From: Neisseriaceae bacterium PsAf
Lineage (GTDB): Bacteria; Pseudomonadota; Gammaproteobacteria; Burkholderiales; Neisseriaceae
Length of the DNA: 64,000 nucleotides
Direction: 5' to 3'
NCBI GenBank assembly: GCA_017114885.1
Contig: WNLJ01000015.1
Coordinates: forward strand, 1 to 64,000
In this document: positions 42,832 through 46,373 of the stretch, in pieces
How positions within the stretch are numbered: position 1 is the stretch's first letter
How the letters are laid out: the number at the start of each line of letters is the position of its first letter
Position numbers and translations under genes: made by a program
Notes under the pieces: generated by a model
The model's input: only the letters and a program-made list of their open reading frames with translations
Told to the model about the DNA's origin: nothing
The model's database searches: none

Positions 42832-42877
42832 AACATAGTTCTCATTATACTATTAACATAGTTCTCATTATACTATT
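42832..42877. repeat. Perfect 23-bp tandem duplication
   Basis: The unit from aacatagttctc to attatactatt (23 bp) occurs twice in a row without change. On the minus strand each unit contains TATAAT, so the duplication may have doubled a -10-like box upstream of the ferredoxin gene, although no good -35 is at the right distance. Confidence 0.9.
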
Positions 42878-42884
42878 AAATTAC

Positions 42885-42978
42885 AGAAATAAAAAAACCG
42901 CCAAAACTCAGGGGAAGTTAAGGCGGTATAAAATATAAGGGGAAAATACTTACAACTCGATCAACGCTTGTAAGTTAT
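42885..42978 (-). ncRNA. Candidate small RNA, or the distal terminator of emrAB
   Basis: On the minus strand this reads: hairpin ACTTACAA/TTGTAAGT (8 bp, 42948-42975), a 20-nt single-stranded linker with TTCCCCTT, then hairpin ACCGCC/GGCGGT with a 19-base loop containing CTTCCCCT, then a T-run. This is the usual shape of a trans-acting small RNA with an intrinsic terminator. The upstream promoter is weak (TAATAC or TCTAAT as -10). The terminal hairpin could instead end the emrAB transcript after it crosses the convergent DUF218 gene. Confidence 0.35.
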
Positions 42979-43001
42979 GTATTAGACAATTAGTGTTTTA
43001 A

Positions 43002-43015
43002 AAGTTCATGAACTT
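43002..43015. promoter_or_regulatory. 14-bp perfect palindrome, operator candidate
   Basis: AAGTTCATGAACTT is fully symmetric. It lies in the 17-bp spacer of a possible promoter for the DUF218 gene (TTTAAA, 17 bp, then TATTTT with TGC before it), where a repressor would block RNA polymerase. It is also upstream of the small RNA candidate on the other strand. No regulator is identified. Confidence 0.4.
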
Positions 43016-43053: not shown

Positions 43054-43686
43054 ATGAAAAAGATTCTAACCATTATTAAATTTTTAGTAGTGCTTTTCCT
43101 GATAAGCTATGTATTGATCTTTGCTAGAGTTGCAAGCGCTAAGCATAAACCAAACTTAAATCCAGCTGATGCTATTATTGTACTAGGAGCCGCAGCCTGG
43201 GGTGAGCGGCCGTCCCCTGTTTTTAGAAATAGGATTGATTATGCTATCGAGTTATACCAAAATGGTTTGGCGGATAACATTATTTTTACCGGTGGAACTC
43301 CGGATAAAAACTATACTTCAGAAGGAGAAGTAGCTGCTAAATGGGCTATTGATAAAGAAATACCTGCTGCTCACATATTTGCTGATACTACTAGCCGCAA
43401 TACTTACGAAAACTTATTGCATGCCAAAAAAATTGCACAACAAAATAACTTTAATACTTTTATCATTGTCAGTGATGCTTACCATCTAACAAGAGCTAAA
43501 ATCATTAGTTTGCTTTTGGGCATGGACGTACAAACAGCGGCAACTCCATACTCAAATTTTAATAGTTCTGATTGGAAAACTAAACTAAAAACTTATTTTA
43601 AAGAAACCAATTCAGTCTACGGATCTATCATTTACCACTACATCCATCCCTATATCTCAAGAAATCAACTAAAAAAATGGTTTTAA
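43054..43686 (+). CDS. DUF218 (YdcF/SanA/ElyC-like) membrane-anchored protein
   Basis: A 210-residue protein with one N-terminal hydrophobic segment (about 5-25) that probably anchors it to the inner membrane with the domain outside. The DUF218 fold is shown by ADAIIVLGAAAWGERPSP, IIFTGGTPDKNYTSEGEV, TSRNTYENLLHAKKI and IIVSDAYHLTRAKII. Relatives such as SanA and ElyC affect envelope integrity, but the reaction is not known. Its end overlaps the emrB end by four bases in convergent orientation without a terminator between. Confidence 0.88.
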   Translation: MKKILTIIKFLVVLFLISYVLIFARVASAKHKPNLNPADAIIVLGAAAWGERPSPVFRNRIDYAIELYQNGLADNIIFTGGTPDKNYTSEGEVAAKWAIDKEIPAAHIFADTTSRNTYENLLHAKKIAQQNNFNTFIIVSDAYHLTRAKIISLLLGMDVQTAATPYSNFNSSDWKTKLKTYFKETNSVYGSIIYHYIHPYISRNQLKKWF

Positions 43687-45186
43687 AATCTCTTCGAGAA
43701 CCAGATAATACCAACCAATAACAAAAATAAAATGGAAGATGCATAAAATATTTCATTCGCACTGATAATAAAAGCTTGCTGAGTGATCATCTGATTGACC
43801 AACTGATTTCCAACATCTGAGGAAGTAATGCCTAATGATTTTAATTGAGTACCCCAGTCAATTGCATTCTGATTAAATAAATTATAATGCTCTGTTAGCC
43901 TAGCATGGTGAAAAGCTTGACGTCTATCCCATAGACTAATCGTTATTGAGGTACCCATAGCCCCTGAAAGTGTCCGCAAAAAATTAGACAAACTCGACGC
44001 TTGAGCAATTTGTTCCGGCTCAAATTGGGATAAAATAATAGTCGTCAAAGGCATAAAAAACAGTGCTGTTGCAATCCCTTGAAAAAACTGAGGCCAAAAC
44101 ACATCCCAAAAAGTCATATTTATATTAAAGGTAACGCTGCGCCAATAAAAATAAATCGCAAATACCACAAAACTGATGGTAATCAACACTCTCATATCCA
44201 GCCTTTTGCCTACCATGCCAATAATAGGTGCTAACAAAACTGGGAAAAAACCTATAGGAGCAGTTACTAAACCTGCAGTGATGGCTGTATAGCCGTATTA
44301 AAGTTGTAGAACTTGTGGAATTAAAACAATGGTTCCCAAATAAACCATAAAAGCAAGACAAGAAGCGACTACACCAATAGTAAAATTAGTCTTTTTAAAC
44401 AGGAATAAATTAATAACAGGATCTTTATCTCCTTTCTCCCATATAATAAAGTATCCTAGCGTAATTAAACTAACAAAAAGCAAGACCACTACTTCAGTAG
44501 ATCCAAACCAACCTAATTCTTTACCCCTATCCAACATTAACTGAAAACTAGCAACCCCAATAACCATCAAAGTAATACCTACAGTATCAATAGGTACTTT
44601 ATATTTAGGAGTTTCTCTACCTTGCAAATATTTCCAACACAGAAATAAGGCTAATAAACCAATGGGTATTTTTATAAAAAATATCCAACCCCAATAGTAA
44701 TTATCACTAATGTATCCACCTAATAATAGGCCCAAATATTGGTGCAACAATTACCACCATAGACCATAACCCCATGGCCATAGTACGTTTTTCTCTAGGA
44801 TATGCGGCTAATAATAAACTTTGGGATAGAGGAATCATGGGACCAGCTACTAACCCTTGTAATACTCGGAAGAAAATAAGCATTCCTAAACTAGTAGATA
44901 GGCCACAAAATAAATAGACCAGTAAGAATAATGAGGTAGAGGCTAAAAATAGCCTAACTTCTCCAAATCTCTTGGCTAAAAACCCTGTTAATGGAATAGA
45001 AATAGCATTCGCAACCGCAAAGGAAGTAATCACCCAAGTTCCTTGCGAAACAGCTGCCCCTAGACTACCAGCAATTGTAGGCAACGCCACATTAGCAATA
45101 GTAGAATCCAAAATCTGCATGAAAACAGCTAACGATAACCCAATGGTTACCAAAGCTAATGGTTTTCCTTGTAAAGGTTGACTCAT
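43683..45186 (-). pseudogene. emrB: EmrB-type MFS drug efflux transporter, broken
   Basis: Three pieces make one DHA2-family 14-helix transporter of about 500 residues. The N-terminal part has MQILDSTIANVALPTIAGSLG. One frameshift lies at about 44721-44730, where one extra A separates PIFGPII from GGYISDNYYWGWIFF. In the restored frame a TAA stop at 44298-44300 interrupts PQVLQL*YGYTAI, and the frame continues open to 43683. Two independent lesions make this a decaying gene. It follows emrA by 10 bases. Confidence 0.88.
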
Positions 45187-45196
45187 TTGTTATGGC

Positions 45197-46373
45197 CTAA
45201 TTAGATTCAGAGAGAATTTCTTCGATAATATTATCAATAGGTTGATAATCTACTGGCGCTATTTCTTCATTTTTATTGCCATGATAGGCAATATTTTCAG
45301 AAGAACTTTGTTGATTTTTCTTCGGGTCAGTAAATACCTTGGTTTTCATGGTCAATCCTATTTTTAAAGGATATTTTTCTAACTCTTCCTGTTTTAAAGC
45401 AATTCTTACTGGCACTCTTTGTACTACCTTAATCCAGTTACCACTAGCATTTTGAGCTGGCAATAAAGAAAATGCACTGCCTGTACCCGCAGAAAGTCCT
45501 ACTACACTTCCATGAAACTTGACGTCAGAACCATATAGATCAGATTCCATTTCAACAGGTTGGCCTTCTTTGATTTTTTTTAATTGATTTTCTTTAAAAT
45601 TCGCTTCAACCCAAAAATCATTTTGTGAAATAACTGAAAGTAAATTTTGACCTACAGCAACTTTCTGACCTATTTGTATATTTCTTTTTTCAATCTGTCC
45701 TGAAATAGGAGATCTAATTTCCGTACGTTGTAAGTTAAGCCAAGCCTGTTTTAAATCTGCAATAGCAACTCTAATAGTCGGTTGTTCTGCAATACTAGTA
45801 CCGTCATTAATATTATTAAGAGCAGTTTGGTACGCTTGTTGAGCAATATATAAATCCTCCTGAGCCTGCTCAACCTGTAGCTTCAAAGGCAGTTCTTTTT
45901 AAATCTACGTTAAGTTTTGCTTGTTGTGCTGAGTTATTCAAATTTTTAAATTCGCTGACTTGATTCTTAAGATTATTTAGGGCTTTATCGTATGCTAATT
46001 GAGAATCTTCCTTATCCAGCAGTACTAATAAATCACCCTGTTGCACAATATCGGTATCCTCCACCAACACCTTATTGACTGTACTAGATACCTGTGCATT
46101 TACATAAACAATATGTCCATTAACATAAGAATCATCAGTATCAACCTCATGTCGCCAAAAAAGTAAATACATGAATAGAAAAAATAAACCAATTAACAAT
46201 AAAATAACAGTAAATATTACTAGATTACGAATTCGTTTATTCATTCTTAATGATGATTTTACTTTAGTTGCTTTTTTTGATGTTCTTTTTTTTTCAGAAG
46301 TTACTTCAACCTTGTTTTCGGTCTCTTTATTATTTTCTTCACTCATAAATAACCTTTCAAAGCTACAATACAA
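45197..46373 (-). pseudogene. emrA: EmrA-type membrane fusion protein (HlyD family), frameshifted
   Basis: The two frames together give about 390 residues, the EmrA length. The first part has a cytoplasmic Lys-rich start, one transmembrane helix (about residues 47-67) and the barrel-sandwich half DTDDSYVNGHIVYVNAQVS. The second has IRSPISGQIEKRNIQIGQKV and the signature SAFSLLPAQNASGNWIKVV. The break is at 45886-45900, where one extra T in GCCTTT separates DLKRTA from LKLQVEQAQEDL. With EmrB and an outer membrane channel it would export hydrophobic drugs or fatty acids. Confidence 0.85.

Follow-up and report, generated by a model that had tools for sequence, protein, structure and literature searches.

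A minus-strand small RNA (sRNA) gene is almost certainly present between a ferredoxin gene and a DUF218 gene in the Neisseriaceae bacterium PsAf, and its product is predicted to be about 85 nt long (positions 42,891–42,976). The region lies within the 64,000-nucleotide stretch of DNA that was analysed (GenBank assembly GCA_017114885.1, contig WNLJ01000015.1, positions 1 to 64,000; hereafter the window). The RNA is very likely a diverged member of a Neisseriaceae family that Rfam lists, apparently on the complementary strand, as IR_84. The full reading that we favour is of a free-standing intergenic minus-strand sRNA that is driven by sigma-E (RpoE), acts by anti-Shine-Dalgarno pairing and belongs to the reversed IR_84 family; taken with all of its parts, we regard it as likely.

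The genome is AT-rich (about 35% GC) and 1.8 Mb in size. The DUF218 gene (43,054–43,686) is on the plus strand, and the ferredoxin gene (42,704–42,453) is on the minus strand, 170 nt downstream of the candidate sRNA; the pair of sRNA and ferredoxin gene is syntenic in a sister species. The interval that separates the sRNA terminator from the ferredoxin gene holds a 23-bp unit in two exact head-to-tail copies (42,832–42,877; minus strand AATAGTATAATGAGAACTATGTT), each containing TATAAT. The repeat, which includes a Fur-like AATGAGAA, may be a promoter or operator that has been duplicated. Upstream of the candidate, also on the minus strand, emrB ends with a stop codon at 43,683. Both emrB and emrA (43,683–46,373, minus strand) appear broken in the assembly, emrB being split into three open reading frames by a frameshift and an in-frame stop, and emrA into two by a frameshift; the downstream emrB junction is read through in the sister species (L002 2293–3096).

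Re-reading the minus-strand letters bore out the sequence, strand and coordinates of the preliminary description, and the elements that it had listed, an 8-bp hairpin, a 20-nt linker with a C-rich motif, a terminator hairpin and a T-run, are all present. Hairpin 1 (42,948–42,975; 8 bp, ACUUACAA/UUGUAAGU) carries the conserved family motif GUAAG in its 3′ arm. The linker holds the candidate seed UUUUCCCCUU (42,937–42,946), which is unpaired in the fold, and is followed by the terminator hairpin ACCGCC/GGCGGU (42,897–42,927) and a run of seven T (42,891–42,897). The 5′ end is predicted from the promoter to lie near 42,976 (±3 nt), and the 3′ end within the T-run. We agree with the earlier observation that no protein gene requires a terminator at this place.

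The predicted fold has an energy of −23.7 kcal/mol, compared to −10.1 ± 2.4 in dinucleotide shuffles (z = −5.7), and none of 200 shuffles was as good. The terminator loop had been described as 19 nt long, which holds for the outer stem alone, but in the minimum-energy fold five additional inner pairs (AACUU/GAGUU) leave a 5-nt loop, CCCCU. The covarying form in relatives is a long terminator stem of 12 bp. Consequently, while the linker motif is unpaired as had been claimed, the second C-rich motif, CUUCCCCU (42,917–42,910, within the terminator hairpin), is less exposed than first described.

Scanning the candidate with Rfam at gathering cut-offs matched no family. A lax scan of the region with 4227 families listed only IR_84 (RF02861), one CRISPR repeat and one snoRNA. 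The best of these was IR_84, which matched over its full length, on the opposite strand, with 18.7 bits; this is below its gathering cut-off of 51 bits over the full model, and by that model the RNA is not a member. Neisseria-specific Rfam families match many genomes of the Neisseriaceae in covariance scans. When IR_84 members are reverse-complemented they display the motifs GUAAG and UUUUCCC together with a strong CCC-loop hairpin and a T run, and the weaker IR_84 matches in other genera have the same features on the reverse strand. Since the terminator T-run and the promoter-like sites lie opposite to the modelled strand, RF02861 appears to have been modelled on the wrong strand (e.g. L066 1501–1685 and other loci). 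The RNA of the window matches the reverse complement of the 5′ part of this “Neisseria sRNA 84” model; it differs from the strongest members, which adjoin suhB and have a sigma-70-like promoter. IR_84 is known only as an uncharacterised database entry, and searching the literature for it by name and by sequence retrieved nothing. Its name may come from a meningococcal screen of intergenic-region sRNAs (PMC4981724).

A covariance model, R1, was derived from other Neisseriaceae genera, using 16 sequences that were all reverse complements of IR_84-type sequences with GUAAG, a UUUUCCC linker and a C-loop terminator; the window and the sister species were left out. Searching the window genome with R1 revealed one confident match, at 42,953–42,891 on the minus strand (35.6 bits, E = 7e-5, runner-up 19.1 bits), and the same match searched in the window has an E-value of 2.5e-6, both E-values being rough. 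A model from which the window's genus had been excluded thus recognises the RNA as a member of the reverse-strand IR_84 family. The significance of this match should survive the choice of the best among 4227 families, because the place had been fixed beforehand. The remaining R1 matches in the genome were at noise level and apparently unrelated, and a second copy was rejected. In the sister species the RNA core is degenerate (R1 8.7 bits); a terminator-like hairpin is retained, the linker reads UUUUCCUCUU, and GAACTT-N15-TCATA is found at the same place. The degenerate sister copy and the single copy in the genome are what could be said for a chance, functionless fold in an AT-rich intergenic region. 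We consider such a fold extremely unlikely, given its z of −5.7, its standing as the sole confident genome-wide match of an independent model and the conservation of its promoter.

Of 83 Neisseriaceae genomes, 70 carry the R1 family; the number of copies ranges from one to four and is often two or more. By comparison, only 3 of 196 other Burkholderiales genomes have a match at E ≤ 0.01, all of them under 32 bits and below the window match. Within the linker, UUUUCC is invariant and CCC nearly invariant among the relatives in the family alignment, and over 43 distinct homologous sequences the terminator stem has a covariation score of 0.616 versus 0.285 when shuffled. The preliminary description's claim of a stand-alone small RNA is well supported by the Neisseriaceae-wide homologs, the upstream promoter, the varied neighbourhoods and the lack of any gene that would need the terminator.

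Copies of the family have differing gene neighbours across genera, among them genes that we take from their translations to be suhB, rsuA, prpB, leuS, ftsZ and gap. Such variation indicates a free-standing gene and argues against a ferredoxin leader. The shared strand, the upstream position and the synteny of the pair in the sister species would suit an RNA that serves as leader or attenuator for the ferredoxin gene, 170 nt away; we nevertheless judge this very improbable, as the TATAAT-bearing repeat between terminator and ferredoxin means that this gene can have its own promoter, and the homologs of other genera have different gene neighbours, though nearly all of these genomes have the ferredoxin. 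Nor do we expect that the hairpin merely ends a long antisense transcript running from emrAB through the DUF218 gene. Although emrB lies upstream on the same strand, with its stop at 43,683, the hairpin is about 750 nt past emrB, relatives occur in unrelated contexts that have no emrB, and the linker and the upstream promoter are conserved as well as the terminator, all of which makes read-through a very poor explanation. In some Neisseria-type genomes two tandem copies lie beside rsuA (L091 751–817 and 1010–1075; L165 301–366 and 889–954). Both copies have GAACTA sigma-E-like sites, and the pair constitutes a further group of sibling sRNAs besides NmsR.

A sigma-E promoter is predicted upstream of the sRNA on the minus strand (42,982–43,007), consisting of GAACTT (43,007–43,002), a 15-nt spacer and TCTAA (42,986–42,982). 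This is near the E. coli sigma-E consensus, GGAACTT and TCAAA (PMC2893595), and its spacing puts the transcription start at the first hairpin. The window genome encodes RpoE (TIGR02939, 253.8 bits, above the cut-off), so that by sequence the gene combines the two features of a sigma-E-dependent sRNA, a sigma-E-type promoter at the 5′ end and RpoE in the genome. The predicted E. coli-type sigma-E promoter upstream of this sRNA is new here. A search with PF08281 identified a single ECF sigma gene in the genome, followed by genes resembling rseA and rseB. This rpoE is preceded by GAACTA-N16-TCCAA, and GAACT(A/T)...TC is found directly 5′ of rpoE in the window genome, in the sister species and in a third genus, the latter two having a comparable arrangement of the locus. 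The predicted −35 element overlaps with a perfect 14-bp palindrome, AAGTTCATGAACTT (43,001–43,014), which is not kept in the sister species.

Across the family, sites were scored with the pattern GAACTW or GAACCA, a spacer of 15–17 nt, and then TC or AC. A sigma-E-like site lies upstream of 19 of 49 copies, compared to 1.1 in shuffled sequence. Such a site precedes a copy in 16 of the 21 sampled genomes that encode RpoE and in none of the 12 that do not (Fisher p = 2e-5, a value that is too optimistic because related genomes are not independent). Genome-wide the generic sigma-E pattern shows no enrichment, with 15 matches versus 20 in the reversed control, and as it is this common the promoter claim rests on position and comparison. 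A sigma-70 consensus scan revealed no promoter positioned to serve the window copy. Some family copies, such as those beside suhB, lack GAACTT and instead have TATAAT-like boxes. E. coli-type RpoE is missing from several genomes of a Neisseria-type genus (g10); the genomes without it include G002, G010, G013, G062, G066, G074, G082, G085, G090, G093 and G104. The sRNA copies sampled from RpoE-lacking Neisseriaceae genomes have no GAACTT site, and TATAAT-like boxes are found in many. For the window copy we consider control by sigma-E to be probable.

From these features we infer transcription, sigma-E dependence and a mode of action as follows. Under envelope stress, RpoE holoenzyme would transcribe the gene from GAACTT-N15-TCTAA, and transcription would stop at the gene's own terminator to give a two-hairpin RNA of about 85 nt. 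Its C-rich linker UUUUCCCCUU would pair with AAGGGGAA-type ribosome-binding sites, with the CCCC terminator loop contributing secondarily, and translation of stress-relevant mRNAs would be blocked, as by RybB and MicA in E. coli. RybB and MicA are short Hfq-type RNAs with a terminator and a sigma-E promoter, GGAACTT / TC(T/A)(G/A)A, and their targets are outer-membrane protein mRNAs. The candidate resembles them as a short RNA with a terminator and a predicted sigma-E-type promoter, but the lax Rfam scan revealed no sequence relation to them.

UUUUCCC is the most conserved unpaired stretch of the RNA and is complementary to GGGAAAA-type ribosome-binding sites. This anatomy suits anti-Shine-Dalgarno action by way of UUUUCCCC and the CCCC loop, to which we give a somewhat better than even chance. 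When 228 start sites from the window and retrieved stretches were screened for duplexes, six reached −15 kcal/mol or lower; shuffled seeds gave 2.2 on average and 6 at most, and the observed number is thus not significant. Scanning for AGGGGAAR found 78 sites, three of them at apparently true ribosome-binding sites, with no clear excess. Overall, these target predictions performed no better than shuffled seeds. Plausible candidate target sites lie at genes read as rplV, nusG, argJ, sixA and a lipoprotein gene.

The preliminary description had drawn a parallel to the neisserial sibling sRNAs, which holds only as an analogy, as NmsR (RF02877) is not the same RNA: both its location and its motifs differ. 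NmsRA and NmsRB, also named NgncR_162/163 or RcoF (RF02877), have two C-rich anti-Shine-Dalgarno stretches (PMC5362039, PMC9973317), are encoded as a pair between lrp and dsbB in Neisseria, and are controlled by the stringent response (PMC5362039). They share with the candidate a hairpin, an exposed C-rich linker and a terminator. They differ in their UUUCUCC motifs, which flank a small second hairpin with 11 nt between them, and in a terminator with a short tetraloop; the candidate is a single copy with UUUUCCCC, has a predicted sigma-E site and is not part of an lrp–dsbB tandem. We located true siblings between lrp and dsbB, with two UUUCUCC per RNA and RF02877 matches (e.g. L098); at the dsbB locus of the window genome and of the sister species, neither a tandem sibling pair nor lrp was found. 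The candidate has no RF02877 match up to E = 10, and with its differing locus and motifs its identity with NmsR/NgncR_162-163 was rejected. The likeness to the siblings is one of function at most.

NgncR_011, a meningococcal sigma-E sRNA that is induced by an ECF sigma factor in Neisseria (PMC3240639, PMC4176332), was rejected as well. It adjoins dnaE, whereas the window copy lies between the DUF218 and ferredoxin genes, and no dnaE start was found beside any of the retrieved family copies. Meningococcal sigma-E is moreover a different factor with a different consensus, GTMAGBWTT / CGTCTAAH (PMC2893595).

The window RNA could also be a real family sRNA that is mainly transcribed by sigma-70, or one that acts otherwise than by anti-Shine-Dalgarno pairing, for example through Hfq or ProQ binding, RNA sponging or pairing in coding regions. 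The copies with TATAAT-like boxes and no GAACTT, the non-significant target screen and the published siblings, which also act inside coding regions (PMC9973317), point this way. The absence of a rightly placed sigma-70 promoter in the consensus scan, a sigma-E site exactly where it is needed and the fact that UUUUCC is one of the best-conserved parts of the RNA argue for the sigma-E-driven, anti-Shine-Dalgarno reading instead, and we hold these alternatives, taken jointly, to be unlikely.

A wider interpretation, which we offer tentatively, is that the family descends from an ancestral Neisseriaceae sRNA, RpoE-driven and anti-Shine-Dalgarno in action, that was a counterpart of RybB and MicA with an unrelated sequence. 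Where E. coli-type RpoE is missing, including in lineages resembling the pathogenic Neisseria, the gene may have acquired sigma-70-like promoters, turning an envelope-stress RNA into an RNA of ordinary growth, and the database entry on the complementary strand may have hidden this history. We suggest that searches for IR_84 in Neisseria RNA data should use the opposite strand. An anonymous, apparently reverse-oriented Rfam entry thereby becomes a regulon that can be tested, built around a conserved sRNA with a promoter type that, throughout a bacterial family, tracks whether the envelope-stress sigma factor is present. If this is true, sigma-E-controlled sRNAs arose in the Betaproteobacteria as well as in the enterics, and the loss of a sigma factor would have rewired an RNA gene rather than removed it.
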